Assembly (NCBI RefSeq): GCF_022808915.1
Contig: NZ_JAKZFS010000002.1
Location: forward strand, 372,001 to 436,000
From: Fundidesulfovibrio terrae
GTDB lineage: Bacteria; Desulfobacterota; Desulfovibrionia; Desulfovibrionales; Desulfovibrionaceae
DNA: 64,000 nt
Direction of reading: 5' to 3'
Shown here: positions 14,278 to 30,226 of the stretch, in pieces
How the letters are laid out: each line of letters opens with the position of its first letter
Numbering within the stretch: position 1 is the first letter of the stretch
Notes under the pieces: generated by a model
Database searches by the model: none
What the model saw: only the letters and a program-made list of their open reading frames with translations
What the model was told of the DNA's origin: nothing
Made by a program: the position numbers and the translations under genes

Positions 14278-15051
14278 CTACTTGCCGCCGCTTAGCCAGC
14301 CTCCCATGAACTTGGCCGCGTCGCCGCCCGCGTCGATCATCTTGATCAGCGCCGAGCCGATGACCACCGCGTCGATCAGGTCCCCGAAGGGGGCCACCTG
14401 CTCCGGGCGCGAGATGCCGAAACCCAGGGCGACGGGCACCTTGAACAGGGGGCGCACCTCGCCGAGCTTGGCCAGCACCTCCTGGGGCAGGCTCTCGCGC
14501 ACGCCCGTGGTGCCCAGCACGGACACGAAGTACACGAAGCCCCTGGCCGCCTCGGCATACATGGCCAGGCGTTCCTTGGGAGTGTTCAGCCCGATCAGGC
14601 AGACGAGTTCCACGCCCGTGCCTTCGAGCGCCGCGCGGATGGGCCCCATCTCTTCGATGGGCAGGTCCGGGATGATGAGCCCGGCCACTCCGGCGGCGGC
14701 GCAGTCGCGCCCGAGCTTTTCCAGGCCGTACTGCAGGAAGGGGTTGTAATAGCCCATGAGCACGATACCGGCCTTGAATCCGCCCTTGCGCTTTTGAAGC
14801 TCGGAAAGGATCCAGGCCAGGTTCACGCCGCGCGTAAGGCAGTCCAGGCTGGCCTTCTCCACCACAGGGCCGTCGGCCACCGGATCGGAGAAGGGCACGC
14901 CGATCTCGATCACGTCGGCCCCTCCGGAGTCCAGGGCGGCGATTTCGTCCCAGAAGCGGGCGCCGTCCGGGAAACCGGCGGGCAGGTAGGGGATGACGGC
15001 CTTGCGGCCGGATGCGTTGGCGGCCTGTATGCGCTCTGTAAGAATGGACAT
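14278..15051 (-). CDS. trpA: Tryptophan synthase alpha subunit
   Basis: A 257-residue TIM barrel that cleaves indole-3-glycerol phosphate to indole and glyceraldehyde-3-phosphate. The catalytic Glu falls at residue 49 (DVIEIGVPFSDP) and Asp at residue 60 (VADGP), the same numbering as in E. coli. Also present are GLIIPDLP and the phosphate-binding GFGIS loop. It starts two bases after the trpB stop, so the two subunits are expressed together and should form the alpha2-beta2 complex. Confidence 0.97.
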   Translation of the reverse strand: MSILTERIQAANASGRKAVIPYLPAGFPDGARFWDEIAALDSGGADVIEIGVPFSDPVADGPVVEKASLDCLTRGVNLAWILSELQKRKGGFKAGIVLMGYYNPFLQYGLEKLGRDCAAAGVAGLIIPDLPIEEMGPIRAALEGTGVELVCLIGLNTPKERLAMYAEAARGFVYFVSVLGTTGVRESLPQEVLAKLGEVRPLFKVPVALGFGISRPEQVAPFGDLIDAVVIGSALIKMIDAGGDAAKFMGGWLSGGK

Positions 15052-15053
15052 TG

Positions 15054-16232
15054 CTATGCCTTCCCTTTCTTCTCGTACTCTTCGATGATGCCGATATCCT
15101 TGTCGCCGCGCCCGGACAGGCAGACCATCACGTGGCTGTCCTTGGGGATGCTGCCTGCGTTTTCCAGCACCCAGGCCACCGCGTGGGAGCTCTCAAGGGC
15201 CGGGATGATGCCTTCTGTCCTGCACAGGGTGTGGAAGGCGTTCAGGGCTTGGCCGTCGTTGATGGTGCCGTAGGCGGCGCGCCCACTGTCCTGAAGCCCG
15301 GCGTGCTCGGGGCCCACGCCCGGATAGTCCAGGCCCGGCGCGATGGAGTGCGAGGGCATGATCTGGCCCTCCGGGGTCTGCAGCAGCATGCTCATGGCCC
15401 CGTGCAGCACGCCCGGCGTGCCCAGATTGAGCGGAGCGGAGTTGTCGCAGCCGGGCTCGCCGGTGCCGGCGGCCTCGACGCCCACCAGCTTGACCTCGGT
15501 GTGGGGAACGAATTCGTGGAAGGCCCCGATGGCGTTGGAGCCGCCGCCCACGCAGGCCACCACGTAGTCCGGCAGGCGGCCTATCTTGCGCATGAACTGG
15601 GCCTTGGCCTCGCGGCTGATCACGGCCTGGAACTCGCGGACCAGCTGCGGGAACGGATGCGGCCCGGCCGCCGTGCCGAAGCAGTAGTGGGTGGTGCGCT
15701 GGTCCGCGATCCAGCGGCGCAGCGCCGCGTTGATGGCGTCCTTCAGGGTCTGGGTGCCGGAGTCGATGGGCACCACAGTGGCGCCGAGAAGGCCCATGCG
15801 GCGCACGTTGTGGGACTGGCGCACCACGTCGGTCGCCCCCATGTACACCACGCACTCCAGGCCCAGCATGGCCGCGGCCGTGGCCGTGGCCACGCCGTGC
15901 ATGCCCGCGCCCGTCTCGGCCAGAAGCACCGACTTGCCCATGTGCTTGCACAAAAGCCCCTGGCCCAGGGCGTTGTTGATCTTGTGCGCGCCCGTGTGGT
16001 TCAGGTCCTCGCGCTTGAGCCAGAGGTTGAATCCGAGTTTGTTGGAGAGGTTGGGGCAGCGGTACAGGGCAGAGGGCCTGCCCACGTAGTCCTCCAGGAC
16101 GGACTGGAATTCCGCCTGGAAGGCCTGGCTGGGGACGATGGTGTTCATGGCCTGCTCGATTTCGAGGAGGGGCGGCATGAGCAGTTCGGGAACGAACATC
16201 CCGCCGAATTTGCCGAAATAACCTTTTTGCAT
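15054..16232 (-). CDS. trpB: Tryptophan synthase beta subunit
   Basis: A 392-residue PLP enzyme joining indole and serine to make tryptophan. The Schiff-base Lys is in GAHKINNA (residue 84). The substrate loop LAETGAGMHGVA and the PLP-phosphate loop VGGGSNAIG are intact. The N-terminal KGYFGKFGGMFVPE marks the TrpB1 type that partners TrpA. Its Shine-Dalgarno GGAGG lies inside the end of a dispersed palindrome (16241-16297), so that repeat may affect translation. Confidence 0.97.
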   Translation of the reverse strand: MQKGYFGKFGGMFVPELLMPPLLEIEQAMNTIVPSQAFQAEFQSVLEDYVGRPSALYRCPNLSNKLGFNLWLKREDLNHTGAHKINNALGQGLLCKHMGKSVLLAETGAGMHGVATATAAAMLGLECVVYMGATDVVRQSHNVRRMGLLGATVVPIDSGTQTLKDAINAALRRWIADQRTTHYCFGTAAGPHPFPQLVREFQAVISREAKAQFMRKIGRLPDYVVACVGGGSNAIGAFHEFVPHTEVKLVGVEAAGTGEPGCDNSAPLNLGTPGVLHGAMSMLLQTPEGQIMPSHSIAPGLDYPGVGPEHAGLQDSGRAAYGTINDGQALNAFHTLCRTEGIIPALESSHAVAWVLENAGSIPKDSHVMVCLSGRGDKDIGIIEEYEKKGKA

Positions 16233-16299: not shown

Positions 16300-16974
16300 T
16301 CAAAAACTTTTAATTATGTGTAGCGCTTGAGTAACTCTGGAAATGTCTTTGACGCCCGGAGAGGATTCGACTCCGGAGTTGAGGTCCAGTCCGGCGGGAT
16401 GAGCTTCCCGCAGGGCCAGGGCCGCGTTGTCCGGGGAGAGCCCTCCGGCCAGGAGCCACGGCTTCGGGGCGCGAAGCCCGGAGAGCGCGGCGAAATCGAG
16501 GCTCTTGCCGTGGCCGCCGCCGGATGTGCCCGAATCGAGCAGCATCAGGGCGCAGGAGTGCGTGAAACGGTCCATGTCGCGCTCAAGAGCCTCGAGTGCG
16601 GCGGCCGGGTCCACGGTCCCGGCCTGCGCGATCGGGTTGGGCGAACCAACAACGAGATACCGCTGCGGCCAGAACACCTTGATGACCCGCTCGTGGCCGA
16701 CTGTCCGGCAGAAGGCCTCGTCCTGCCCGGCGTGGAGCTGGGCGTAATCGAGCCCGGCCGCTTCCATGATCCGGTTCACCGCGTCGGCGTCCTGCTCAAC
16801 GAACACGCCGACGCGCTTGGCCCGCCCGCGTGCTATCGACGCCACGTGCTCCGGCGTGACCCTTCGCGGGCTCTTGGCCGCGAAGATGAAGCCGAGCAGG
16901 TCCACGCCCAGGCCGTCCAGGGCTTTGACCTGTTCGGGTAACGTCATGCCGCAGACTTTCACCAGGCGGCTCAC
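16300..16974 (-). CDS. trpF: Phosphoribosylanthranilate isomerase
   Basis: A 224-residue TIM barrel catalysing the Amadori rearrangement of N-(5'-phosphoribosyl)anthranilate. The N-terminal VKVCGMT holds the general base Cys (residue 8). GFIFAAKSPRRVT is a family signature, and the acid Asp is in LLDSGTSGGGHGKSLD. GLDLNSGVESSPGVKD binds phosphate. It is separated from trpC by about 240 bases containing two dispersed palindromes, unlike the tight spacing elsewhere in the operon. Confidence 0.95.
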   Translation of the reverse strand: MSRLVKVCGMTLPEQVKALDGLGVDLLGFIFAAKSPRRVTPEHVASIARGRAKRVGVFVEQDADAVNRIMEAAGLDYAQLHAGQDEAFCRTVGHERVIKVFWPQRYLVVGSPNPIAQAGTVDPAAALEALERDMDRFTHSCALMLLDSGTSGGGHGKSLDFAALSGLRAPKPWLLAGGLSPDNAALALREAHPAGLDLNSGVESSPGVKDISRVTQALHIIKSF

Positions 16975-17212: not shown

Positions 17213-17983
17213 TCACCCGTTTCTCCCCATCAGCTTCTTCAGGGCCGCGCCGGGGTCGCCGCCGCTCATGAGCGACGTGCCCACCAGCACGGCGTCGTAT
17301 CCGGCCTGGATCATGCGCTCGCGATCGTCGGGCGTGGTGATCCCGCTGGCGGCGATCCAGATCTGGCCTTCCTGCTTGTGCCTGGCCAGCCGCTCGGCCA
17401 CGGCCAGGTCGGTGGTCAGTTTGTCCAGGTCGCGGCTGTTGACCTGGATGATTTCCGGGTCCAGGGCCTGGGCCTTTTCCAGGTCGGCCTCGTCGAACAC
17501 CTCCACCACGGCCTGGAGTTCGAAGGCCATGCCCAGCCCCAGCATCTCGCGCAGCTCCTCCTGCGTGCTCATGCGCGCGATGAGCAGGAACGCGGAAGCC
17601 GGGGTGGCGGCGGTCTCGATCACCTGCACGGGGTGCAGGATGAAGTCCTTGCGCAACATGGGCAACCCCGCCCCGGCCATGCGGCTGAGGTATTCGAGGC
17701 TCCCCTTGAAGTAGTGCTCCTCGGTGAGCACGGACAGGGCGGCGGCGCCGGCGTCCCTGTAGGCGGCGGCCACCTGCTCCGGGGTGAGCGTCATGTCGAT
17801 CTCGCCGCGCGAGGGGGAGGCGCGCTTGTACTCGGCGATCACCGCGCCGGGGGCGTGCTCCCAGAGTGCGCGGATGAAGTCCGGACGCTCGCCCCCGAAG
17901 GGAGCGGGCATGAGGCCTTCATCCTCGAGGGCGATCAGGCGTTCGATGCCGGGGCCCTTGGCCTGGCGGAACTTCTCAAGCAT
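17213..17983 (-). CDS. trpC: Indole-3-glycerol phosphate synthase
   Basis: A 256-residue TIM barrel closing the indole ring. VIAEYKRASPSRGEI contains the catalytic Lys, and LSVLTEEHYFKGS and MLRKDFILHPVQV are family signatures. IIQVNSRDLDKLTTDL and ILVGTS-like VLVGTSLMSGGDP bind the substrate phosphate. The ATG at 17983 is preceded by GGAAAGA and lies eight bases inside the end of trpD, so the two are coupled; longer upstream starts would read through trpD. It is not fused to trpF, unlike in enterobacteria. Confidence 0.95.
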   Translation of the reverse strand: MLEKFRQAKGPGIERLIALEDEGLMPAPFGGERPDFIRALWEHAPGAVIAEYKRASPSRGEIDMTLTPEQVAAAYRDAGAAALSVLTEEHYFKGSLEYLSRMAGAGLPMLRKDFILHPVQVIETAATPASAFLLIARMSTQEELREMLGLGMAFELQAVVEVFDEADLEKAQALDPEIIQVNSRDLDKLTTDLAVAERLARHKQEGQIWIAASGITTPDDRERMIQAGYDAVLVGTSLMSGGDPGAALKKLMGRNG

Positions 17984-18974
17984 TGATCTTTCCTTCCCAG
18001 AACTTGGCGGCGGCTCCGGCTCGCACGGCCTCGCGGGCCTTCTCCACACCCTGGTTGAGGGTGAGTCCGTCCTCCAGCAGGTGCAGGCAGGCGCCCAGGT
18101 TCAGGGCCAGCATGTCCTTCATGGCCTCGGGGCCGTCGCCGGACAGGAGCTCCAGGAGCACGGCCACGGCCTCGTCCTTGCTGGCCACGGCCACCTCGGA
18201 GAGCTTGTGGCGCGGGATGCCCACCGTCTGCGGGTCCAGGGTCTCGCGGCGGGTCCAGCCGTCGCGTATCCAAACCACCTCAGCCGGGCCGAAGGGCGAG
18301 AGCTCGTCGAAGCCGCCCGCGCCGTGCACCACGGCGGCGCGGCGCACGCCGGTGAGGGCCAGGGCCTCGGCGATGAGCGGCACGAATCCGGCGGTGGGCA
18401 CGCCCAGAAGCTGGTGGGTGGGCCGGGCCGGGTTCAAGAGCGGCCCCATGAGGTTGAAGAGCGTCCTCGCGCCCAGCTCCTTGCGGATGGGCATGATGCG
18501 CTTGAAGGCCGGGTGGAAGTTGGGGGCGAAGAGGAAGACGAAATTGCGCTCTTTGAGCTGCGCGGCCACCTTTTCGGGCTCCACGGTGAGGCCGAGGCCT
18601 AGCGATTCCACGACGTCGGCCGAGCCGCACGTGGAGGACACGGAGCGGTTGCCGTGCTTGACCACCTTGTGCCCGAGCGCGGCCAGGTACAGGGCCACGG
18701 CGGTGGAGCAGTTGAAGGAGCAGGTGTTGTCGCCGCCGGTGCCGCAGGTGTCGATGCGGTCCTCGGTGAGGCCGGGCACCAGGCGGGCCTGCTCCAGGGC
18801 GGCCTTCACGCCGCAGGCGATCTCGAGGCCGGTCTCACCCTTGGTCTTGAGGCCCATGAGGAAGGCCCCCACGCAGGACGCGGGCATCTCGCCCGTGTAC
18901 ATGGCGCGAAACGACGCGAGCGCCTGCTCTTCGGTCAGGTTCTTGCCGATGGCCAGATGTTCCAGGACTTCCAT
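17976..18974 (-). CDS. trpD: Anthranilate phosphoribosyltransferase
   Basis: A 332-residue protein transferring phosphoribosyl from PRPP to anthranilate. DTCGTGGDNTCSFNCST is the PRPP-binding loop. VKHGNRSVSSTCGSADVVESLG, LFAPNFHPAFKRIMPIRKELGARTLFN and the N-terminal helix bundle are intact. No glutamine amidotransferase domain is fused. AAGGAG lies eight bases before the ATG. It is the first trp gene after the DUF2971 insertion (70-base gap). Confidence 0.97.
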   Translation of the reverse strand: MEVLEHLAIGKNLTEEQALASFRAMYTGEMPASCVGAFLMGLKTKGETGLEIACGVKAALEQARLVPGLTEDRIDTCGTGGDNTCSFNCSTAVALYLAALGHKVVKHGNRSVSSTCGSADVVESLGLGLTVEPEKVAAQLKERNFVFLFAPNFHPAFKRIMPIRKELGARTLFNLMGPLLNPARPTHQLLGVPTAGFVPLIAEALALTGVRRAAVVHGAGGFDELSPFGPAEVVWIRDGWTRRETLDPQTVGIPRHKLSEVAVASKDEAVAVLLELLSGDGPEAMKDMLALNLGACLHLLEDGLTLNQGVEKAREAVRAGAAAKFWEGKINA

Positions 18975-19791: not shown

Positions 19792-20364
19792 CTAGGCGAT
19801 CTTCTCCGGAAAGTTCTTTAAGAGCCGCATTCCGTCCGGCGTGAGCACGCTCTCGGGATGGAACTGCACGCCCACCCAGGGGCGGTCCTTCCACCTCAGG
19901 CCCATCACCTCGTTCTCGTCGGTCCAAGCCGTGATCTCAAGCTTTTCCGGGGCCTTATGGGCAAGAACCAAGAGCGAGTGATACCGGCACACTTCCATGG
20001 GGTTGGGCACGCCCTCGAAAAGCCCGCTCTCCCGGTGGGTCACCAGGCTGGTCTTTCCGTGCATGATCCTGTCCGCCACCACCACAGGCGCGCCCGCGAA
20101 GTGCCCCAGGATCTGGTGGCCCAGGCACACGCCCAAAACCGGCGTCTTCTTGGGCAGCTTGCCCAGGAACTCCAGGCACAGTCCGGCGTTTTCCGGCCTG
20201 CTCGGCCCAGGAGAGATGACGCATCTCTCGATCTTCCCGGACTCGGCCAGAGAAAGCACCTCGGGGTCGTCGTTGGTCAGGACCACCGGCTCGTGCCCCA
20301 GCTGCTGGAAGTACTGCACCAGGTTGAACGTGAACGAGTCGAAATTATCTATGAGCAAAAACAT
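19792..20364 (-). CDS. trpG: Anthranilate synthase glutamine amidotransferase subunit
   Basis: A 190-residue class I glutamine amidotransferase. The nucleophile is Cys80 in GVCLGHQILG, and the His-Glu pair is in VQFHPESVLT. The N-terminal LLIDNFDSFTFNLVQYF is typical of TrpG/PabA. It supplies ammonia to TrpE and may also serve PabB. The ATG at 20364 lies 20 bases inside the end of trpE, giving translational coupling; the longer open frame upstream is trpE shadow. Confidence 0.95.
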   Translation of the reverse strand: MFLLIDNFDSFTFNLVQYFQQLGHEPVVLTNDDPEVLSLAESGKIERCVISPGPSRPENAGLCLEFLGKLPKKTPVLGVCLGHQILGHFAGAPVVVADRIMHGKTSLVTHRESGLFEGVPNPMEVCRYHSLLVLAHKAPEKLEITAWTDENEVMGLRWKDRPWVGVQFHPESVLTPDGMRLLKNFPEKIA

Positions 20365-21757
20365 CGGTATCTCCCTGTTTGGCCAGAACCTCGGCAAGCA
20401 CCCGGGCCTTGTTGTGCACTTCCTGCCATTCCTTGTCCGGGTCGGAGTCGAATACGATCCCGGCCCCGGTCTGCCAGTGCACCATGCCGTCCTTGAACCA
20501 CATGGAGCGGATGAGGATGCCGGTGTCCAGGTCCACGCGGCCCTTGTCCAGGCCGAGCCAGCCGATGGCTCCGGCGTAGGGCCCGCGCGAGATGGTCTCG
20601 ATCTCGGCGATGATCTCCATGGCCCGGACCTTGGGCGCGCCACTCACGGTGCCGGCCGGGAAAACCGAGCCGATCACGTCGAGGGCGTCCAAGCCCTCCT
20701 TGAGGTGGGCCGTGACGTAGGATGTCAGGTGCAGCACGTGGGAGAACTTCTCCACCTGCATGAATTTCTCCACGCGGACGCTGCCGGGGGTGGCGATGCG
20801 GCCCAGGTCGTTTCGGCCAAGGTCCACGAGCATCACGTGCTCGGCGCGCTCCTTGGGGTCGGCCAGCAGGTCCTGGGCGAAAGCTTCATCCTCGGCCTCG
20901 TCGCGCCCGCGCGGGCGGGTCCCGGCGATGGGCGCGGTGGTGAGCTGGCCGTTCACGCAGCGCACCAGAAACTCCGGCGAGGAGCCCACCAGCGTCACGC
21001 GCGGCAGCCTCACGAAGAACATGTAGGGCGAGGGGTTCACCTGGCGCAGGCGGCGGTACACGGCGAAGGGGTCGCCCGAGAATGGCGCATGGAAGCGGTT
21101 GGAGAGCACCACCTGGATGCACTCGCCCTGGTGGATCATCTCCTTGGCCTTGCGCACCCCGGCCAGGAAGGCCTGCTCGCCCGGATGGTGCAGCACTCCG
21201 CCCATCTCGGCCTTGTCCATGGTGCGCAGCACGGCCGAGGCGTCCAGCTTGGGCCGCATGCCGCCGCCGAGCGACAAGAGGCAGCAGCGGTGGCGCAGGT
21301 GGTCGAAGAGCACCACATGGCCGGGCAGCACCAGGGTGCAGTCCATGTCCTTGGGCGGGATGACCTTGGCCACCTTGGGCGAAAAGAGCGCGGCCGAGCC
21401 GTAGCCGAAATAGCCGTACAGGCCGCGCGTGATGCCGGGCAGGTCCTCGAAGCCCTCGGGCGGGGTGAGGGTGATGGCGGCCATCAGCTCGCGCACGCCT
21501 GTAAGGAAAGGCTGGCCGCTCAGTTCCTCGAGGGGCTTCAGGCGCTCGTCGCGGGTGGTCAGGGAGAGCTTGCCGTCCTGGCAGTTGGCCGTCAGGCGGA
21601 AGTCCCAGGCCAGGATCGAGTAGCGTCCGAGGCGTCCGTCCACCTCGGCGGACTCGAAGAGTATGCCCGGCCTGTCGCCCACAAGCCCCAGATAGAGGCT
21701 GATGGGCGTCTGCACGTCGGCGGGCAGCCACTTGGCTTCCTGCATGAGCTCGATCAT
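20345..21757 (-). CDS. trpE: Anthranilate synthase component I
   Basis: A 470-residue chorismate-using enzyme. FESAEVDGRLGRYSIL near residue 35 carries the tryptophan feedback site region. The C-terminal half has the chorismate-binding signatures: IQVVLSNRF, FFVRLPRVTLVGSSPEFLVR, PIAGTRPRG, DLGRNDLGRIATPGSV and GAPKVRAMEII. The ATG at 21757 follows AAAGGA. A dispersed palindrome separates it from tyrA. No Trp-rich leader precedes it locally, so control appears to come from the operon front. Confidence 0.97.
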   Translation of the reverse strand: MIELMQEAKWLPADVQTPISLYLGLVGDRPGILFESAEVDGRLGRYSILAWDFRLTANCQDGKLSLTTRDERLKPLEELSGQPFLTGVRELMAAITLTPPEGFEDLPGITRGLYGYFGYGSAALFSPKVAKVIPPKDMDCTLVLPGHVVLFDHLRHRCCLLSLGGGMRPKLDASAVLRTMDKAEMGGVLHHPGEQAFLAGVRKAKEMIHQGECIQVVLSNRFHAPFSGDPFAVYRRLRQVNPSPYMFFVRLPRVTLVGSSPEFLVRCVNGQLTTAPIAGTRPRGRDEAEDEAFAQDLLADPKERAEHVMLVDLGRNDLGRIATPGSVRVEKFMQVEKFSHVLHLTSYVTAHLKEGLDALDVIGSVFPAGTVSGAPKVRAMEIIAEIETISRGPYAGAIGWLGLDKGRVDLDTGILIRSMWFKDGMVHWQTGAGIVFDSDPDKEWQEVHNKARVLAEVLAKQGDTDVFAHR

Positions 21758-21899: not shown

Positions 21900-22709
21900 T
21901 TAGTTAACCTTGCCGCCCGGGCGGGGCGTTTCGTCCTTCCACCAGCTCTTGGCCCGCTCCACCAGCACTTCCAGGTCGCCGCCCGCGGCCACGTTCAGGT
22001 AGTTGCGGTAGGAGCGCACGGCCTCCAGGCTGAACGGGTTGGCCTCGTAGATGAGGCGGAACAGGTCCGCGTCCTCGAGGATCAGCTTCTTGGCCGCGTC
22101 CAGCCTGCGGCGAAACGACGGAGTGAGAAACCGGTCGAACTCGTCGTGGCTGGCCTGGGCCGCCAGGTACGCCACCGTGGACACGAAATTGAGCCCCTGC
22201 ACGTAGGCCATGGCCCGGTCGTGCTCCTCGGCCGTGGTGCGGAACGGTGCGAAGCCGAGCTTGGCCATCAGCTCCTCCACCTGGCGCGCCGCTTCCTCGC
22301 TTCGGCCGGGGCACACAGCCACCCGAAGCTCCTCGCCCTCGGCGGGCCTGGGGCCGAACAGCGGGTGCGTGCCAACCACAGGACCGGGATGCAGAAGCAT
22401 CATTTCTTCCAGCGGACGCACCTTCACCGAACAGATGTCCGCCACGACAGAGCCTTTCGGGATCAGCGGCCCAAGCTGCGCCAGCACCGAGGCCATGGCC
22501 TGGGCGGGCACGCAGAGCAGCACCATATCCGTGCGTGGCAGGGCGCGACTTGCCGCCTCGCGCGAAGCCTCGCTCTCCAGCGGCGCGTCCAGCTCGAAGC
22601 AGGCCAGGCCCTCCCGGCGGCAGCGGGACACGAAAAGCCGTCCCATCTTGCCGCCGGCCCCGACCACCGTCAGCGTGCGAATGGCCTGGGCCTTGCTCAC
22701 CGTGCGCAC
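21900..22709 (-). CDS. tyrA: Prephenate dehydrogenase
   Basis: A 269-residue NAD-dependent enzyme converting prephenate to 4-hydroxyphenylpyruvate. LTVVGAGGKMGRLFVSRC is the nucleotide-binding loop, and VVGTHPLFGP holds the conserved substrate-site His. DRAMAYVQGLNF is the family helix. It is at the short end of TyrA lengths and lacks an ACT domain, so tyrosine feedback by that route is not visible. The GTG at 22709 is shown. A second GTG at 22700 has a better-spaced GAGG and may be the true start. Confidence 0.88.
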   Translation of the reverse strand: MRTVSKAQAIRTLTVVGAGGKMGRLFVSRCRREGLACFELDAPLESEASREAASRALPRTDMVLLCVPAQAMASVLAQLGPLIPKGSVVADICSVKVRPLEEMMLLHPGPVVGTHPLFGPRPAEGEELRVAVCPGRSEEAARQVEELMAKLGFAPFRTTAEEHDRAMAYVQGLNFVSTVAYLAAQASHDEFDRFLTPSFRRRLDAAKKLILEDADLFRLIYEANPFSLEAVRSYRNYLNVAAGGDLEVLVERAKSWWKDETPRPGGKVN

Positions 22710-22770: not shown

Positions 22771-24090
22771 TCACCGCGTGAGCCTCCACTGATCCCAGAA
22801 TCCCGGGAAGCTCTTGGCCACGCAGGCCGGGCTGTCCAGGCGCACGTCGATGCCGGCGAGCTCCATGAGGGCCATGCTCATGGCCATGCGGTGGTCGCCG
22901 TAGGTGCAGAAGTTGACCGCCTCGTCCCTGCGGATGGGGCCGGGGGTGATGGTCAGCCCGTCCTCGAAGGTGACCACCTCGGCCCCGACCTTGCGCACCT
23001 CGTCGGCGCAGGCCTGGAGGCGGTCCGATTCCTTGATGCGCAGATGCGCCACGTTGCGGATGGTGGTCGCGCCCTTGGCCTGGGCGGCCACGGCGCATAC
23101 CGTGGGCACCAGGTCCGGGCAGTGGCCCATGTCCACGTCGACGCCCGTGAGGCCGCCGTCGCCGGGTGACACCACCACGCCGTCCTGGTCCCAGGTCACC
23201 TTGCCCCCCATGGAGGCCAGGATGTCGAGGATGGCCTTGTCGCCCTGGAGCGAATCCCGGCGCAGTCCGCGAAGCCTCGCCGGACGCGGCCCCACGGCAC
23301 CGGCGGCCAGGAAGTAGGACGCGTTGGACCAGTCGCCCTCCACCACGTAGGTGCGGGCCTTGTAGCGGGCCGGGCTCACCTCGAAGACGAGCTTGCCCGG
23401 AACCACCGACGAGACCTCGGTGAACTGCTTGCGCACCCAGTCCGAGCCTTCCAGGGCCAGCACGGCCACGTCGATGCCGAAGTCGGCCATGGCCATGAGC
23501 GTGAGCGACACGTACGGCCAGGAGACCACCTTGTCCCCCCCGATGCCCACCCGCATGGGCTTGTCCGCCAGCGGCGAGGCCAGCAGGATGCCCGACAGGT
23601 ACTGGCTGGACTCGTCCAGCGAGATGGAGGCGTCGCCGCCCGAGAGGCCGGAAGTGGATACCACGAAGGGCGGGTAGCCGGGCTTGCCCTCCCACCGGAA
23701 CTGCGGCCCGAGCGGTTCCAGGGCGCTGGTGAGCTGGCCGATGGGCCGGTCGTGCATGCGGCCCTCGCCGTGGATGCGGAACAGCCCTTCCCCGGCGGCC
23801 AGCACGGCCGTGAGCAGGCGGCAGGTGGTGCCGGATTCGCCCACGTTGCAGTCCGCCGGTTCGGAGGTGCCGCCCCTGGGGCGTCCGCCGATGCCGGTGA
23901 TCTCCCAGCCCCGGTCGGTGCTCTTGAAGGAGGCCCCGCAGGCGGCCAGGCAGCGTCGGGTGCGGATCAGGTCGTCGGATTCCAGGGCGTCCACCACCAG
24001 GGACTCGCCGTCTGCCAGGGAGGCGCAGATGAAGGCCCGGTGCGACACGGACTTGGAGGCCGGAGCCTTGATGTCGATGAGGTCGCGCAT
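22771..24090 (-). CDS. aroA: 3-phosphoshikimate 1-carboxyvinyltransferase (EPSP synthase)
   Basis: A 439-residue two-domain enzyme. APASKSVSHRAFICASLADGES binds substrate, NVGESGTTCRLLTAV is the PEP-region loop (the usual NAGTAMR is altered), VEGDWSNASYFLAAGAV follows, and RIKESDRLQACADEVRKVGA is the hallmark. The C-terminal DHRMAMSMAL is intact. The altered PEP loop (GESGTTCR) suggests a divergent or class II-like enzyme. The ATG at 24090 lies two bases after the pheA stop; the long upstream open frame overlaps pheA and is rejected. Confidence 0.95.
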   Translation of the reverse strand: MRDLIDIKAPASKSVSHRAFICASLADGESLVVDALESDDLIRTRRCLAACGASFKSTDRGWEITGIGGRPRGGTSEPADCNVGESGTTCRLLTAVLAAGEGLFRIHGEGRMHDRPIGQLTSALEPLGPQFRWEGKPGYPPFVVSTSGLSGGDASISLDESSQYLSGILLASPLADKPMRVGIGGDKVVSWPYVSLTLMAMADFGIDVAVLALEGSDWVRKQFTEVSSVVPGKLVFEVSPARYKARTYVVEGDWSNASYFLAAGAVGPRPARLRGLRRDSLQGDKAILDILASMGGKVTWDQDGVVVSPGDGGLTGVDVDMGHCPDLVPTVCAVAAQAKGATTIRNVAHLRIKESDRLQACADEVRKVGAEVVTFEDGLTITPGPIRRDEAVNFCTYGDHRMAMSMALMELAGIDVRLDSPACVAKSFPGFWDQWRLTR

Positions 24091-24092
24091 GT

Positions 24093-25229
24093 CTATCCCC
24101 TTTCCACCACGGCCGAGCCCGACACGTCCAGGTGCGGCCCCGCCGGGTAGCTCCCGAGAATGCGCAGGGAGTGCAGTTCGTTGCGGAGCTCCACCAGCAT
24201 GTTCTGGAACTCCTCGCGACCCAGGTCGCATTGCAGGTCGGCGAAGAACACGTACTTCCACTTCTCGCCGCGCAGCGGGCGCGACTCCAGCTTGGTCAGG
24301 TTGATCCCGGCCCCGGCCAGTTTGGAGAGCACCACCGAGAGCGCGCCCGGCTTGTCCGGCAGGGTGAACAGGATGGAGGTCTTGTCCCGGTTGCCGGACT
24401 TGGTCTCGGCTGGCCCGATGACCAGGAAGCGCGTCCAGTTGTCGGGCAGGTCCTCGATGCGGCTGGCCAGGACGTTTAAGCCCAGCATCTCGGAGAGCTT
24501 CACGTGTCCGATGGCCGCGGCCTTGGGGTTGTAGATCACCCGGCGCGCCGCAGCCGCTGTCGATTCAGCGGGCACGATGCGGGCCATGGGCAGATGCGCT
24601 TTGAGCCAGCCGCCGCACTGGGCCAGGGGCTGCGGGTGGGAGTATACCTCTTCGATGCGCGTCAGGTCCGTCCCCTTGGAGAGGAGCGCGTGGCTGATCT
24701 TGCAGTAGAGCTCGGCCTGGATGAACACCTCGTGCCTGAGAAAGAGGTCCAGGCTCTGGCCCACCGTGCCCTGCAGGGAGTTCTCCAGGGGAATGACCCC
24801 AAGCTCCACGTCGCGCAGGCTCACTGCCTCGAAGACCTCGTCGATGGTCTTGCGCGGCTCGAAATCCGCGCTCTTGCCCAGGTAGGAGACCGCAGCGAAG
24901 GAGGAGAAGGTTCCCTCGGGCCCCAGGTAGGCCACCTTCTGGCGGCGCTGGAGCCGCCTGGAGCTGGACATTATTTCCCGGTAGATGGCCCGCAGGTGCT
25001 CGTCGGGCATGGGGCCGGGGTTCAGGTGCGAGAGTTTCTCCAGCACTTCCTTCTCACGGAAGGGCTTGAACACGGGCTCGTCGCTGTCGGCCTTGCGCCT
25101 GCCCACCTCGATGGAGTAGCCCGCCCGCTTGTTGAGGAGGGCCAGAAGCTCCAGGTCCACCTGGTCGATAGCCTCACGGACGTCGTCGAGGGGCATGTCG
25201 CGCGCGGGATCGTCTTTTTCGAGAGCCAT
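24093..25229 (-). CDS. pheA: Bifunctional chorismate mutase / prephenate dehydratase
   Basis: A 378-residue fusion. Residues about 15-95 are an AroQ chorismate mutase helix bundle (DDVREAIDQVDLELLALLNKRA, REKEVLEKL). Residues about 98-275 are the dehydratase, from VAYLGPEGTFSSFAA to the catalytic TRF in NWTRFLVI. Residues about 285-360 are an ACT domain with the phenylalanine-binding GALS and ESRP motifs (KPGALSVV, LTKLESRP). This predicts direct phenylalanine feedback. It starts four bases after the aroB' stop. Confidence 0.96.
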   Translation of the reverse strand: MALEKDDPARDMPLDDVREAIDQVDLELLALLNKRAGYSIEVGRRKADSDEPVFKPFREKEVLEKLSHLNPGPMPDEHLRAIYREIMSSSRRLQRRQKVAYLGPEGTFSSFAAVSYLGKSADFEPRKTIDEVFEAVSLRDVELGVIPLENSLQGTVGQSLDLFLRHEVFIQAELYCKISHALLSKGTDLTRIEEVYSHPQPLAQCGGWLKAHLPMARIVPAESTAAAARRVIYNPKAAAIGHVKLSEMLGLNVLASRIEDLPDNWTRFLVIGPAETKSGNRDKTSILFTLPDKPGALSVVLSKLAGAGINLTKLESRPLRGEKWKYVFFADLQCDLGREEFQNMLVELRNELHSLRILGSYPAGPHLDVSGSAVVERG

Positions 25230-25232
25230 GGC

Positions 25233-26213
25233 CTAGCCTTCCTTGATCTCTTCGCTGATGCGCATGCCGAAGTGGCGCCCGGCCTGGTCCACCTTGCACA
25301 GCACCTCGTCGCCCACCTTGAGGCTCACCACGCTGACCGGCTCGCCGTCCGGGCGGGTCAGGCGGATGGTCTCGGCGTTCTGCAGGAACACCGCGCCTTC
25401 CGTGTCGCCCACCTTGGCCGTGACTAGCAGCATGGGCCGTATCTCCACCTTCACCCGGCCGATGGTGGCCAGCGAAGTGTCCCCCGAGGCGGACACCACC
25501 AGCACCTCGTCGCCCGAGGCCAGTTCTTCCAGGTAGTTGGTCTTGTCGCCGGGCATCACCGCGTAGGCGTGCACGGCTCCGGCGTTCACCCGGAAGGGCC
25601 GCGCGGCCACGTAGGGGTTGGACTCGGTCTCGGCGTGCACCAGGAAGGTGAAGGCGCTGGAGTTGCCCACCAGCATGCCTTGGGTCTTTTTGAGCATGCT
25701 CATGGTGTCCACGCACACCCTGTGCCCCAGCCCGGCGGACTTGATGGAGGTGACCACTCCCTTTTGCAGGGCCACCTTGCCCTGGGAGAGCTTCACCTCG
25801 GCCACGATCTTTTTCAGGTCCCCGGCCGCCTGGGGCAGTACCACGATGACGTCCACGCCGCGCTCCAGGATGCCTGCGGCCAGGCGGGCCTGGTCGAGGT
25901 CCGCCACTTCGACGCCAAGGCCGGTGGACTGGGCCAGGATGTTCTCCACCGGGATGATCTCCCAGCCCAGGCCCAGCACGGTCTTGACGCCCGCCTTGAG
26001 GGCTGCCGTGGCGGTCTCCTCGTCGGCCTTGGAGTTGAGTTCCACCCGGACCACGTCGCCCGGGGTGAGCACTTCCACCCGGCCCAGGGCGCGCACGGCC
26101 TCGGCGTGCTTCTCGTCGGTGATCACGGCGTCCACGCCGGACTCCAGGGCCAGGGTGACCAGCTTCTTGTCGAAGGGTATTGCGTTGAACCAAACCTGTT
26201 TCACTGTATCCAC
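25233..26213 (-). CDS. aroB': 3-dehydroquinate synthase II
   Basis: A 326-residue protein of the archaeal-type DHQ synthase family: KQVWFNAIPFDKKLVTLALESGVDAVI at the N-terminus, GLGWEIIPVENILAQS in the middle, and ETESNPYVAARPFRVNAGAVHAY and GDTSLATIGRVKVEIRPMLLV near the end. With ADH synthase it forms dehydroquinate from ADH by oxidative deamination and cyclisation. This bypasses DAHP synthase and classical AroB. The GTG start at 26213 is immediately adjacent to the stop of the upstream gene. Confidence 0.93.
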   Translation of the reverse strand: MDTVKQVWFNAIPFDKKLVTLALESGVDAVITDEKHAEAVRALGRVEVLTPGDVVRVELNSKADEETATAALKAGVKTVLGLGWEIIPVENILAQSTGLGVEVADLDQARLAAGILERGVDVIVVLPQAAGDLKKIVAEVKLSQGKVALQKGVVTSIKSAGLGHRVCVDTMSMLKKTQGMLVGNSSAFTFLVHAETESNPYVAARPFRVNAGAVHAYAVMPGDKTNYLEELASGDEVLVVSASGDTSLATIGRVKVEIRPMLLVTAKVGDTEGAVFLQNAETIRLTRPDGEPVSVVSLKVGDEVLCKVDQAGRHFGMRISEEIKEG

Positions 26214-27011
26214 CTAGTCCTTGAGCAGTTCCATGGCCTGTTCCACTTCCCAGTTGAGATGCACCACGCCGTGCAGGGCCTGCACCAGGCGGGAGGGCTG
26301 GGCGAACTGGAAGATGTTGCGTCCGATGGACAGGCCGGAGCCGCCCGCCTGGACGGAGTCGTGGGCCATGGTGATGAGGTCGCGCACGTTGGAGAGCTTG
26401 GGGCCGCCCGCGATGACCACCGGGATGCAGCAGGCGTCGCAGACCTTGGCGAAGGTTTCGATGTCGCCGGTGTAGGGCACCTTGACCACGTCCGCTCCCA
26501 GTTCCAGGCCCACGCGGGCGCAGTGGGCCACCACGTCGGGGTCGTATTCGTTCTTCACCTTGGGGCCGCGCGCGTAGACCATGGCCAGCACCGGAACGCC
26601 CCATTCGTTGGCCGTGGAGGTGACGTGGCCGAAGTCTTCCAGCATGTGGCGCTCGGTTTCGTCGCCCAGGTTGATGTGAAGGGACACGCCGTCGGCGCCG
26701 AGCTTCAGGGCGTCTTCAACGGTGCCCACGAGGGTCTTGGCGTTGGGGAAGGGCGAGATGGTGGTGGAGGCGGAGAGATGGATGATCAGGCCCACGTCGC
26801 GGCCGCGCTTGCGGTGGGAGCAGCGCACCAGGCCTTTGTGCATGAGCACCGCGTTGGCCCCGCCCTCGGCCACCTGATTGATGGTCTCGCGCATGTCGAT
26901 GAGGCCGTCGATGGGGCCCACCGTCACGCCGTGGTCCATGGGCACGATGATGGTGCGGTTGTTGTTGCGGTTGAAGATGCGTTCGAGTCTGACGGCTTTT
27001 CCGATGAGCAT
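26214..27011 (-). CDS. aroA': 2-amino-3,7-dideoxy-D-threo-hept-6-ulosonate (ADH) synthase
   Basis: A 265-residue class I aldolase-type TIM barrel. [17 protein letters not shown] is the family opening, [12 protein letters not shown] carries the Schiff-base Lys, and [11 protein letters not shown] and [13 protein letters not shown] bind the substrate phosphate. The enzyme makes ADH from aspartate semialdehyde and a deoxy-ketohexose phosphate, the first step of the alternative aromatic route described in methanogens. The ATG at 27011 follows AGGAGAG. It is the first structural gene behind the attenuator. Confidence 0.95.
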
Positions 27012-27074
27012 GTGAACTCTCCTGCGGTTTGCGCCGGGGCCGGATCCTGCGTTCTTCTGACCGGCGGACCTTTG

Positions 27075-27114
27075 GTAAACGAAGAGGGCCGCCGGCTTAT
27101 CGCCAGCGGCCCTC
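27075..27114 (-). terminator. Attenuator terminator of the aromatic operon
   Basis: On the minus strand GAGGGCCGCTGGC (27102-27114), loop GATAA, GCCGGCGGCCCTC (27084-27096) gives a 13-bp GC-rich stem with one wobble. It is followed by TTCGTTTACC, a short U-rich tail. It lies 27 bases past the leader-peptide stop and 63 bases before the ATG of the first structural gene. Confidence 0.8.
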
Positions 27115-27171
27115 GGTGTGGTTTCGGTCAACTTGTCAGGTTAACGTGCACCTCTCCCGATACCGCTGGCG
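27101..27171 (-). promoter_or_regulatory. Antiterminator pairing competing with the attenuator
   Basis: CGCCAGCGG inside the leader reading frame (27163-27171) is a perfect complement of CCGCTGGCG (27101-27109), which is part of the terminator's 5' arm. A flanking TCGG (27157-27160) pairs with CCGA (27113-27116). The two folds are mutually exclusive. A ribosome stalled on the aromatic codons leaves the upstream strand free. One at the stop codon (27141-27143), 14 bases beyond, should mask it. Confidence 0.75.
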
Positions 27172-27230
27172 CGGCTAAACCAAAAGTAAAACCAAAAGTA
27201 GAAGCCAGAGGTAAGGTTCGGGGTCTGCAT
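27141..27230 (-). CDS. Aromatic leader peptide of the aro-trp operon
   Basis: A 29-codon reading frame, ATG at 27230, TAA at 27141. After MQTPNLTSG comes FYFWFYFWF (residues 10-18): five Phe, two Tyr and two Trp in a row, followed by SRASGIGRGAR. The frame is too short for routine gene calls. The unbroken aromatic run, plus the downstream terminator and antiterminator, identify it as an attenuation leader for the operon that makes exactly these three amino acids. There is no convincing Shine-Dalgarno. The best promoter places the transcript start within a few bases of the ATG, so translation may be leaderless. Confidence 0.88.
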   Translation of the reverse strand: MQTPNLTSGFYFWFYFWFSRASGIGRGAR

Positions 27231-27238
27231 GGGCAGAG

Positions 27239-27268
27239 TAGGTACGCGCCCTGCCGCTGAGCTGTCAA
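27239..27268 (-). promoter_or_regulatory. Promoter of the aro-trp operon
   Basis: On the minus strand a perfect TTGACA (27263-27268), an 18-base spacer and TACCTA (27239-27244). The predicted start is around 27231-27233, directly at the leader ATG (27230). Confidence 0.6.
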
Positions 27269-27358
27269 GGCTCAATTTGTGCAAAATCGGAAAAACGCCT
27301 CGTCCCCCCCGGCTTCCGCCGCCGACCCGTTTCGGGACGCCGGCTGCCGCGCCACGGC

Positions 27359-30022
27359 TCAGAGCATGCTTTCGCGGCGCGCTTTCCCCAGGGGAAAGCG
27401 CACCTCGATTTCCGCGCCCGGAGCGTTGTCCGTCCGCAGCGTTCCTCCCAACTGGCGCGCCAGCTCGCTTACCAGCTGGGCGCCGAGGGAGGGAGAATCC
27501 CGGATGTCGAATCCTTCCGGAAACCCCGGCCCGTCGTCGCTAATCGTGAGCTGCGCCTCGCTGCCGTTTTTGTGCAGGGAGATGTTCAGGTTTCCTCCCC
27601 GGCTGGCGTCGAAGGCGTGCTTGAAGGCGTTGGTGATCAGTTCGTTCACCAGCAGGCCGCAGGGCACGGCCTTGTCGATGCCGAGCAAGGTGGGGGCGGC
27701 GTTGATGTGCAGCCGCACTTTCCCGTTGCGCCCGGAGAACGACGCAGCCAGTTTTCCGGCTAGGTTTTCGATGTATTCCGCCATGTCGATGGAGGCGAAG
27801 TTGTCGGCGGCGCCGTAGAGCTGCTCGTGGATGAGCGCCATGGACCTGATGCGCCACTCCAGCCGCTCGGCCCGTTCGAGCTCGCCGGGATTGGAGATTC
27901 CAGCGCACTGCAGGCTTATGAGGCTCGTTATGATCTGGAGGTTGTTCTTGACCCGGTGGTGGATTTCCTTGAGCAGCACGTCCTTTTCCCGCAGGGAATC
28001 GTTGACGGCCTCCTGCGCGTCCTTGCGGGCCTGGATATCCTCGATCACGGAAATGAAATAGCCCGGCGCTCCCGAGGCGTCGCGCACCAGGGCCACGGTG
28101 AGGTTGGTCCAGACGGAACTCTTGTCCTTGCGGATGTAGCGTTTTTCCCGGGAGTAGGTCTTGATCTCTCCGGATATGACCTTGCCCACCATGTCCAGGT
28201 CGGAAGCCAGGTCGTCGGGGTGCGTGATGTCCTGGAAGGTCATCCCGAACATTTCTTCCCGAGAGTACCCCACGATGTCGCACAGCTTCTGGTTGACCAG
28301 TATCCAGCGCCCTTCGACGCTCACCTGGGCCATGCCCACGGCGGCCAGCTCGAAGGTGGCCTGGAACCGCTTCCGGGTCTCCGTCAGTTCGGCCGCATGC
28401 CTGCGCCGCTCCTTCATGCAGCCGTCCACCCGCGCCAGCAGCACTTCGCTGGAGAACGGTTTGGTGATGTAGTCCTGCACGCCTTCCTTGAGCAGGGACA
28501 GTCGCAGGGCTTCGTCGGCCTTGGCTGTGAGCATGATGATGGGCACGTCGACCATCTCGGGGCGGCGCCTGAGCTCGCGAACCATGCCTTCGCCGGTGAG
28601 GACGGGCATCATGACGTCGCTCACGATCAGGTCCGGACGGTAGCGCAGGGCCTTTTCCAGGCCGTCCCGGCCGTCGAAGGCGCTGATGACCCTCCAACTG
28701 GAGGCGAGCGTCCGGGTGATGAACCCGTTCATGTCCGGGTTGTCCTCGACCACGAGCACCAGCCCGTCGCGCCCCGCGCCGGGCTCGAGTGAGCCAAGGC
28801 CGTCCCGCGGGGCGGCGTCGGCTGCTTCGGCGCTCCCAGGCGCCTCTTGCGCGAGCTTGCTGTCGAGGTAGACCGGGCGTGCGTCCACCACCGCACCGGC
28901 CGGAGCGGCCAAGGGAAGCCTGACGGTGAACAGGGCTCCGCCGCCCTCGGCCGGGGCGACATCGGCCGAGCCGCCATGAAGCTCGGCGAATTCCTTGACG
29001 ATGGCCAATCCGAGCCCCGTGCCGCCGCGTTTTCGGCCAGGACCGCCGTCCAGTTGCCTGAACCGCTCGAACACGCTTGCGCGCATGGCCTCGGGAACGC
29101 CGGGGCCGTTGTCGCGCACCCGGAAGACGGCGTGTCCGTCCTCCCTGGCCAGTGAGAGCTCCACCTTGCCGTCGGGAGGGATGAACTTGAAGGCGTTGGA
29201 CAGCAGGTTGACCAGTATGCGCTGCACCTTCTCCGAGTCGACCTGGGCTGTGAGCGTCCGGGGAAGCTCCAGGGTGAAGGACACGCGAGTGTTCATGGTG
29301 TGCGATTCGAAAAGCGACGCCGTGAGCCGGGTCAGGGACGCCAGGTCCAGCTCGGCGTAGCGCATGGACATGCGCCCGGCCTCGAGCTTGGCCACGTCCA
29401 GGAGGTCGGTGACGTGGCGGTAGAGGAGGCGGGCGTTGCGCTGCATGACGTCCAGGTCGCGGGTCAATCGCGCGGGGAGGTCCGGGGCCTCGAGCATCTT
29501 CTCCAGGGGCCCCAGGATGAGGGTCAGGGGGGTGCGCAGTTCATGGCTTATGTTAGCGTACAACTGCGTCTTGAGTTCGTCGAGTTCCCTGGTGCGCTGG
29601 TAAAGCTGGGTGATCTTGTCGTTGGCCTCCTGCAGGCGGGTGTTGCCCCGCCTGGTGGCCTCCAGGGCGTCCGAAGCGCGTTTGTTGGCCAGGCGCAGCC
29701 GTTCGTGGGAGATGCTGAAGAGAACGCCGAGGCCCAGGAAGATGGCGATGGAGATGTAGCTTACGGGATCGGAGGGAACGAACGAATGCTCCGACGGGAT
29801 GAAGAAATACAGCACCAGCAGGGCCGATACCGCCGTGGCCGCAAGGCCTCCCCGCAGTCCACCGACCCAGGAACTGAAGAAGACGGCGGGAAAGAACAGG
29901 AACCACACGTACGGCTTGATGGCTGCCCAGAACGTCCATTGCACCGCGAAGGCCGCGAAGGGAATCAGGACCGCGAAAAACAGTCGCAAGACGGAAGCCT
30001 GTGCTGCATCGATTCGTCCCAC
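27359..30022 (-). CDS. Hybrid sensor kinase with two kinase modules
   Basis: About 887 residues. Order: a KdpD-like DUF4118 membrane region (about 10-105, several hydrophobic helices); a coiled coil; HisKA with SHELRTPLTL (His about 160); HATPase with N, G1 and G2 boxes (NLLSNAFKF, DNGPGV, GTGLGLAI); a receiver domain (VEDNPDM, phospho-Asp in SDVMMP, Lys in TKPF); PAS (about 560-680); then a second kinase of HisKA_2 type (KEIHHRVKNNLQIITSLISLQ) with its own HATPase (NELITNAFKHAF, DDGPGF). Signal and output are unknown. No separate response regulator is adjacent. The GTG at 30022 is preferred because GAGGAG lies seven bases upstream; a GTG at 30028 is the alternative. Confidence 0.88.
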   Translation of the reverse strand: MGRIDAAQASVLRLFFAVLIPFAAFAVQWTFWAAIKPYVWFLFFPAVFFSSWVGGLRGGLAATAVSALLVLYFFIPSEHSFVPSDPVSYISIAIFLGLGVLFSISHERLRLANKRASDALEATRRGNTRLQEANDKITQLYQRTRELDELKTQLYANISHELRTPLTLILGPLEKMLEAPDLPARLTRDLDVMQRNARLLYRHVTDLLDVAKLEAGRMSMRYAELDLASLTRLTASLFESHTMNTRVSFTLELPRTLTAQVDSEKVQRILVNLLSNAFKFIPPDGKVELSLAREDGHAVFRVRDNGPGVPEAMRASVFERFRQLDGGPGRKRGGTGLGLAIVKEFAELHGGSADVAPAEGGGALFTVRLPLAAPAGAVVDARPVYLDSKLAQEAPGSAEAADAAPRDGLGSLEPGAGRDGLVLVVEDNPDMNGFITRTLASSWRVISAFDGRDGLEKALRYRPDLIVSDVMMPVLTGEGMVRELRRRPEMVDVPIIMLTAKADEALRLSLLKEGVQDYITKPFSSEVLLARVDGCMKERRRHAAELTETRKRFQATFELAAVGMAQVSVEGRWILVNQKLCDIVGYSREEMFGMTFQDITHPDDLASDLDMVGKVISGEIKTYSREKRYIRKDKSSVWTNLTVALVRDASGAPGYFISVIEDIQARKDAQEAVNDSLREKDVLLKEIHHRVKNNLQIITSLISLQCAGISNPGELERAERLEWRIRSMALIHEQLYGAADNFASIDMAEYIENLAGKLAASFSGRNGKVRLHINAAPTLLGIDKAVPCGLLVNELITNAFKHAFDASRGGNLNISLHKNGSEAQLTISDDGPGFPEGFDIRDSPSLGAQLVSELARQLGGTLRTDNAPGAEIEVRFPLGKARRESML

Positions 30023-30226
30023 ATCCACTCCTCATGGCGCGGCCCGGGGGCCGCGCCTGAAGGTCGCCGGGAACTTCTCTGGCGGCTCTTGTTCGACGAA
30101 ACACCTGCCTTGTGTTCAAAGCCAAGGACGGCATCATTTCCTATCATCCCCCAGGCCCGGGCGCAACGGATATGCAAATTTTCCGGAGCGCCGGTCCAAC
30201 CCGCATGGCGCGGAGAGACCGCGCGG

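Follow-up and report, generated by a model that had tools for sequence, protein, structure and literature searches.

The 64,000-nucleotide stretch of Fundidesulfovibrio terrae DNA analyzed here (the window) carries on its minus strand a series of genes for aromatic amino acid biosynthesis that is preceded by a short leader region. The first structural gene (26214..27011) encodes 2-amino-3,7-dideoxy-D-threo-hept-6-ulosonate (ADH) synthase (aroA'; TIGR01949, 401.6 bits against a cut-off of 299.45) and is followed by genes for 3-dehydroquinate synthase II (aroB', 25233..26213; PF01959, with NF002628 above its cut-off), for PheA with chorismate mutase, prephenate dehydratase and ACT domains (24093..25229; domain scan), for EPSP synthase (aroA, 22771..24090; PF00275) and for the prephenate dehydrogenase TyrA (21900..22709; PF02153). 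The trp genes occupy the remainder of the cluster on the same strand and comprise TrpE (20345..21757; PF00425 and PF04715), TrpG (19792..20364; an open reading frame assigned its start and name by sequence), TrpD (17976..18974; PF00591), TrpC (17213..17983), TrpF (16300..16974) and TrpB (15054..16232), the last three being open reading frames named by sequence and gene order, and TrpA (14278..15051; PF00290). A 244-residue open reading frame with no Pfam match lies between trpG and trpD (19045-19779, minus strand). The original prediction that the operon serves all three aromatic amino acids was borne out, as its genes account for initial steps of the common pathway and for each of the three branches. 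The trpG-trpD spacing is also ~1.4 kb in four loci (L050-L053) of g1, the genus of the window, is wider in L056 and is smaller in most others. A tandem pair of ADH synthase genes heads the supraoperon behind a single leader in L093, L094, L106, L109 and L169. Upstream of the operon, a gene for an 889-residue hybrid histidine kinase with response regulator and PAS domains (27359-30028, minus strand) ends ~90 nt before the -35 element described below. TrpR is missing from 58 of 59 family genomes, and the single match sits in a 736-residue frame. In an apparently orthologous cluster of Desulfovibrio hydrothermalis, ten genes respond jointly to pressure (PMC4162548).

The leader region contains a 29-codon open reading frame (27230-27141, minus strand) with the translation MQTPNLTSGFYFWFYFWFSRASGIGRGAR* and a stop codon at 27143-27141. 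Translation confirmed the predicted nine consecutive aromatic codons, FYFWFYFWF (5 Phe, 2 Tyr and 2 Trp; 27203-27177, minus strand), which consist of one Phe codon followed by a perfect 12-nt tandem duplication (TACTTTTGGTTT twice). The run reads FFNWFYFWF or FFSWFYFWF in congeners L006-L008. Related leaders were compared by using 158 usable leader regions with their downstream DNA, which were picked from matches to model R1 with the window excluded and were classed by tblastn with the window's own proteins. The model was trained mostly on trp-operon leaders, and other copies are under-sampled. The set comprises 64 leaders of trp-containing supraoperons, 33 of stand-alone ADH synthase genes, 21 of aro operons without trp genes in reach, 18 cut or split loci and 22 leaders with other downstream genes. 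When open reading frames were selected by aromatic or Trp content, at least seven aromatic residues within ten codons were present in 39 of 40 related trp-operon regions (the first 40 of the 64), compared with 0 of 400 dinucleotide shuffles of the same regions. Thus, the aromatic reading frame is not a product of chance.

A perfect -35 element, TTGACA (27268-27263, minus strand), begins 38 nt ahead of the leader ATG at 27230. The accompanying -10 candidate (GTACCT or TACCTA, 27245-27239, minus strand) is weak, being proposed by position with no match to the consensus, and a default scan for sigma-70 promoters returned no match here, the -10 element being poor though TTGACA is perfect. The TTGAC motif is located 35-39 nt ahead of the leader ATG in 49 of the 64 trp-operon leaders, and none of the other 5-nt bins out to 110 nt holds more than three matches. 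When in-frame alternative start codons were allowed, an ATG was found 34-40 nt past TTGAC in 58 of the 64, and 57 of these 58 have no Shine-Dalgarno sequence. The same combination of spacing and absent Shine-Dalgarno sequence recurs in 26 of 33 stand-alone ADH synthase leaders, but in only one of 21 aro operons without trp. As the usual promoter spacing and the position of TTGAC place the 5' end of the RNA at the start codon, the leader frame of the window, which has no Shine-Dalgarno sequence, is probably leaderless, with a predicted 5' end at the ATG or within ~3 nt of it. The E. coli trp and pheA leaders possess a conventional ribosome-binding site. A 5' end coincident with the ATG of the leader frame is established for trpL of Sinorhizobium meliloti (PMC7298713), and the window resembles that case in this predicted property; the S. 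meliloti leader is alphaproteobacterial and responds to Trp only.

Four segments on the minus strand can be arranged into the competing pairings of an attenuator. Segment 1 (ACCUCUGGC, 27212-27204), whose pairing with segment 2 was assessed in the alignment A1 described below, directly precedes the aromatic run. Segment 2 (CGCCAGCGGU, 27171-27162) is the 5' strand of the putative antiterminator and is situated inside the reading frame directly past the run. Segments 3 (27114-27102) and 4 (27096-27084) are the two arms of the terminator, GAGGGCCGCTGGC-GATAA-GCCGGCGGCCCTC, a hairpin of 13 pairs (27114-27084) that was recovered by a terminator scan and supported by pairing in A1. The original prediction of a 13-bp terminator with a U-rich tail stood for the hairpin, but the tail is only moderately U-rich (UUCGUUUACC): the U-containing stretch UUCGUUUACCAA (27083-27072) is weak in the window, and many relatives have longer T-runs. 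The antiterminator partner of segment 2 spans 27110-27101, within which CGCCAGCGG (27171-27163) is, as claimed, the perfect complement of 27109-27101. Folding energies in the window are -12.8 kcal/mol for 1:2, -22.5 kcal/mol for 2:3 and -30.4 kcal/mol for 3:4, and the leader is more stable than 200 of 200 dinucleotide shuffles (z -3.3). Rfam searches returned no leader family at gathering threshold across the window, nor any at E values up to 10 over 26950-27350, and the same searches gave no T-box or riboswitch aptamer match at the leader.

Conservation of these pairings was assessed in A1, an alignment of 29 leaders. The mutual exclusivity proposed for the antiterminator was upheld, in that 2:3 shares the 5' arm of the terminator and its pairing is kept in the 29 leaders: 92.6% of 2:3 cells are paired compared with 31.5-45.6% when the pairing is slid, and eight core pairs are intact in all sequences that are ungapped at both positions (28 or 29 of 29). 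The terminator pairing 3:4 reaches 95.3% of cells with six pairs changed on both sides. The protector helix 1:2 is imperfect, with 78.9% of cells paired versus at most 48.7% when slid and one pair open in 22 of 29 sequences; its covariation score (0.153) is little above that of slid versions (up to 0.129). Covariation in 2:3 is thin, amounting to one pair changed on both sides and five further pair types, values that are reached by 446 of 500 shuffles, although none of the 500 comes up to the alignment in changed cells or in covariation score. RNAalifold applied to A1 recovered only the terminator and a 3-bp hairpin, the antiterminator being absent from the consensus fold. Column 136 of A1 pairs with segment 2 in 29 of 29 sequences as C-G (17), A-U (7) or U-G (5), the seven A-U sequences all belonging to the genus of the window, whereas pairing of the same column with its terminator partner is lost in 17 of 29. 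Therefore, the 2:3 pair is held where it conflicts with the terminator pair. This bears on the alternative that the locus is a constitutive terminator with a chance reading frame and unregulated read-through, which would be in keeping with a terminator that is the minimum-energy state even when a stalled ribosome is modeled. Both the retention of the conflicting 2:3 pair and the failure of shuffled sequences to match the density of aromatic codons oppose this explanation, which is scarcely credible.

Individual loci were examined with a 2:3 duplex test in which a pass denotes that at most 10 of 200 mononucleotide shuffles are as good. A terminator-like hairpin is present in 64 of 64 trp-operon leaders, and 58 of these passed the duplex test; the other six did not beat the shuffles, L093 and L094 clearly so. 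Passes were recorded for 18 of 21 aro leaders without trp, 13 of 17 cut or split loci, the single cut stand-alone locus, 17 of 22 other leaders and 23 of 32 stand-alone ADH synthase leaders, the 33rd of which (L335) yielded no terminator. Among the nine stand-alone failures, eight are Tyr-run leaders, including L199 from the genome of the window.

Conservation of the arrangement beyond the window was evident in the loci first compared, in which an aromatic leader frame lies ~250-100 nt upstream of 29 of 30 ADH-synthase-similar genes; the piece inspected for the 30th (L020) was off-position, and its apparent counterpart L256 has the leader. Among the best 80 of 473 GTDB loci, 70 have at least five aromatic residues within ten codons upstream and 65 have at least six, with L303 having too little upstream sequence. 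These 80 include records named Desulfobacterales, Desulfobacteraceae and similar, and among such Desulfobacterales-type loci that were checked, ten have ADH synthase followed by PheA behind Phe/Tyr-rich leaders, some with one Trp. Model R1 matched 197 of 217 family genomes and 274 of 297 class genomes at E 0.01, and 57 of 297 in the phylum at E 1e-4, but these totals include terminator-only matches and so are not usable as leader counts. Judged by the leaders recovered, the putative attenuator type is widespread in Desulfovibrionales.

The amino acids specified by the runs vary with the genes behind them. In trp-containing supraoperons, Phe, Tyr and Trp codons are all present in the best 14-codon span of 64 of 64 leaders from 34 genera, the window being excluded. 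In 21 genomes that possess both kinds of leader, Trp is in the supraoperon run in 21 of 21 and in the stand-alone ADH synthase run in 0 of 21. The genome of the window, which is outside those 21, follows the same pattern, with FYFWFYFWF at the present locus and IYYYSYG before a second ADH synthase (L199). Among the 33 stand-alone leaders Phe outnumbers Tyr in 19 and Tyr outnumbers Phe in 14; Trp is found in the 14-codon span of four and in the contiguous run of one. Trp is present in 10 of 21 leaders of aro operons without trp genes in reach, nine of them in the contiguous run. When counted by genus, Trp is in the run in 33 of 34 for trp operons (the miss, L184, being a tie in the choice of run), compared with 1 of 12 for stand-alone ADH synthase genes (Fisher p 1e-8) and 4 of 10 for aro operons without trp (p 2e-4), where the p-values are to be read in the light of genera not being independent. 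Overall, the identity of the aromatic codons in these predicted leaders follows the genes behind each copy. The pattern also suggests that ADH synthase isozymes may be split between Phe and Tyr control, a role that in E. coli is played by DAHP synthase isozymes. The second ADH synthase locus of the window genome (G000:C4:392544-392682; L043; about 614-1620 in L199) has a Tyr-run leader (MRNPHARIFSIYYYSYGVRFRGAW...) and a terminator. Tyr-run leaders before stand-alone ADH synthases also occur in g1, g25 and g41, and in g6 (L341) a mixed FFYCYSY leader precedes such a gene.

The possibility that leader type simply follows ADH synthase lineage was considered by using a FastTree phylogeny of 81 of 118 proteins (maximally two per class, genus and leader type) and was rejected, FYW supraoperon copies being found on both sides of the split. 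One side holds the stand-alone Tyr-run copies together with the supraoperon copies of g5 and g13, and the other holds the stand-alone Phe-run copies together with the supraoperon copies of g1, g25 and g41; the sides are parted by several branches with support from 0 to 0.95.

The coding character of the run distinguishes between further explanations. As TTY, TAY and TGG codons yield a T-rich tract ahead of the terminator, the run might be an RNA- or protein-binding element or a polymerase pause signal with the aromatic peptide as a by-product. However, the gaps within the run of A1 have lengths divisible by three. Of the distinct codon differences in the run, 14 are synonymous, and among the 24 that are not, 16 replace one aromatic residue with another. 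As the runs additionally turn Tyr, Phe or Trp according to the downstream gene, a purely nucleic acid signal is very improbable. Alternatively, the frame could specify a short functional aromatic-rich peptide, whether membrane-associated or trans-acting, whose mRNA merely precedes the operon, for which the trans-acting leader peptide peTrpL of S. meliloti provides a precedent (PMC7298713). The shifts in composition with operon content argue against this proposal, as does the constraint that 2:3 pairing imposes at the RNA level on the segment coding for the residues after the run, and a functional peptide as the main purpose of the frame is most unlikely.

The leader frame, aromatic run, terminator, 2:3 pairing and, less firmly, 1:2 pairing are conserved together, which underlies the interpretation that the element is, in all likelihood, a trp-type ribosome-mediated transcription attenuator with a multivalent (OR-type) Phe/Tyr/Trp stall cassette. 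Conservation, the competing pairings and the swapping of codons between targets provide good sequence-level support for attenuation by a three-amino-acid cassette. In this mechanism, transcription would start at the leader ATG or within a few nucleotides of it and ribosomes would load on the leaderless 5' end. If charged Phe-, Tyr- and Trp-tRNA are all ample, the ribosome would traverse the cassette and reach the stop codon, allowing segment 1 to re-pair with segment 2 and 3:4 to form, which would terminate transcription before the ADH synthase gene. If any one of the charged tRNAs is scarce, the ribosome would stall within the run, hindering 1:2 and leaving most of segment 2 free, such that 2:3 would form before segment 4 is made and the polymerase would continue into the aromatic genes. 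Together with the related copies that carry other cassettes in the same genomes, the element would belong to a group of attenuators that are individually matched to their targets. When RNA extending to 27101 was folded with a stalled ribosome whose footprint was assumed to reach 10 nt beyond the A site, the antiterminator was -36.5 kcal/mol with the A site on the first aromatic codon and -22.7 kcal/mol with the A site on the last (Phe). Once arm 4 was present, the terminator was the minimum-energy state in every case folded, even with a stalled ribosome. Thus, the switch must be kinetic and decided during transcription, as in other attenuators.

Whether all three amino acids are read is a separate matter. 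A true attenuator might in effect respond to only one or two of the amino acids, with the remaining aromatic codons as passengers or as modulators of the stall. The Phe-Tyr-Phe leader of Corynebacterium glutamicum aroR is a precedent, as Tyr supply is without effect on aroF though the leader holds Tyr (Neshat et al., 2014, cited in PMC11802643); the presence of a codon therefore is no proof of a response. The dependence of antiterminator stability on stall position and the retention of a Trp codon in some aro operons without trp also favor this restricted sensing. Nevertheless, the invariable presence of Trp in the 64 trp-operon leaders, its complete absence from the stand-alone ADH synthase runs of the same 21 genomes and the occurrence of Tyr-run and Phe-run leaders as alternatives are at odds with passenger codons, and sensing of only one or two amino acids is possible but rather unlikely. 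Three-amino-acid OR sensing in the multivalent attenuator becomes directly testable.

The E. coli trpL and pheL systems share with the window a leader frame with regulatory codons, mutually exclusive 1:2, 2:3 and 3:4 pairings and a terminator before the first structural gene, but each reads one amino acid, and the window matches no Rfam leader family. The enteric ilv (ilvGMEDA) and thr leaders are multivalent, a single leader reading more than one amino acid produced by a branched pathway. Like the window, these leaders interleave end-product codons for at least two amino acids, but the residues are branched-chain or Thr/Ile instead of aromatic, and these leaders are not known to show a clade-wide change of cassette with operon splitting. 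Considered with aroR, which contains Phe-Tyr-Phe (PMC11802643; PMC4046766), the multivalent ilv and thr leaders mean that the premise of the original prediction that classical leaders read one amino acid fails as a general rule. The aroR leader, which precedes aroF, resembles the window in being a mixed aromatic leader ahead of the enzyme for pathway entry (PMC11802643; PMC4046766), but comprises two amino acids in three codons before a DAHP synthase gene (PMC11802643). The further claim that the logic is undescribed requires qualification. A putative attenuator before the D. vulgaris aroA'-aroB'-pheA-aroF-tyrA-[trp] supraoperon, which has the same gene order in a relative, was listed in 2005 from the Merino website (PMC1173090, Table 7), and this predicted attenuator is very probably the orthologue of the window element. 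The term 'leader peptide' does not occur in the main text of that paper and, unlike the present description, neither a leader peptide nor codon content nor paralogues are given in its accessible parts (PMC1173090). The claim stands to the extent that no Phe/Tyr/Trp leader, nor any change of cassette with operon content, was found in the open literature, most subscription papers lying outside the search. A survey of RNA regulons published in 2013, with 10 Desulfovibrionales genomes among those covered, was limited to His, Leu, Thr and Trp attenuators by the Rfam models then available (PMC3766115).

Leaders before genes outside the supraoperon extend the correspondence between codons and targets. 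Among 27 genomes in which the retrieved aro regions are devoid of trp genes, trpE was located separately in 23, and a frame with at least three Trp codons in six lies upstream of 16 of the 23, compared with 0.43% of 920 shuffles. In the other seven, four frames have two Trp codons and three have one; at least two were reached by 21% of shuffles. As their terminator sequences are visibly different, the g40 trpE leaders L351 and L353 (GWWWR) look like separate trpL elements, not copies of this scaffold. Among the 22 leaders with other downstream genes, 14 precede a sodium:solute symporter gene (L061, L064, L069, L071, L073, L081, L206, L211, L212, L216, L219, L342, L343 and L344) in genera g5, g13, g21 and g51; these symporters are 68-100% identical to that of L061, with PF00474 checked in three. 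Phe is the sole aromatic residue in the span examined in 13 of the 14, L343 having one Tyr, which predicts a phenylalanine-related substrate. WWW leaders before genes of DctP-type TRAP transporters, which occur in two families within the order (L202, about 430-620; L345, about 490-590), predict tryptophan or a relative as substrate. It is fairly probable that Desulfovibrionales possess a single attenuator scaffold, which in most supraoperon lineages is leaderless and which serves as a rewritable sensor whose cassettes track gene fusion, splitting and duplication, such that the fused operon has an FYW OR sensor, the isozymes have Phe- or Tyr-runs and the transporters have Phe- or Trp-runs. On this reading, a cassette may serve as a predictor of pathway membership and transporter substrate. 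The family would constitute a natural experiment on the adjustment of regulatory input to operon structure, in which leaders carrying FYW, FY, F, Y or W codons match the genes behind them. In L181 (oriented 455-2533), a Phe/Tyr leader is followed by a gene resembling that for phenylacetate-CoA ligase, with a score below the NCBIfam cut-off, and by an ACT-pair protein. This arrangement hints that aromatic amino acids are made from arylacetates. L201 and L205 have Phe/Tyr leaders with one Trp ahead of aroA-tyrA, and three g19 loci (L172, L195 and L347) are unassigned. The symporters are ~535 residues in length, and one g21 genome has two adjoining symporter genes, each with its own leader (L342 and L343).
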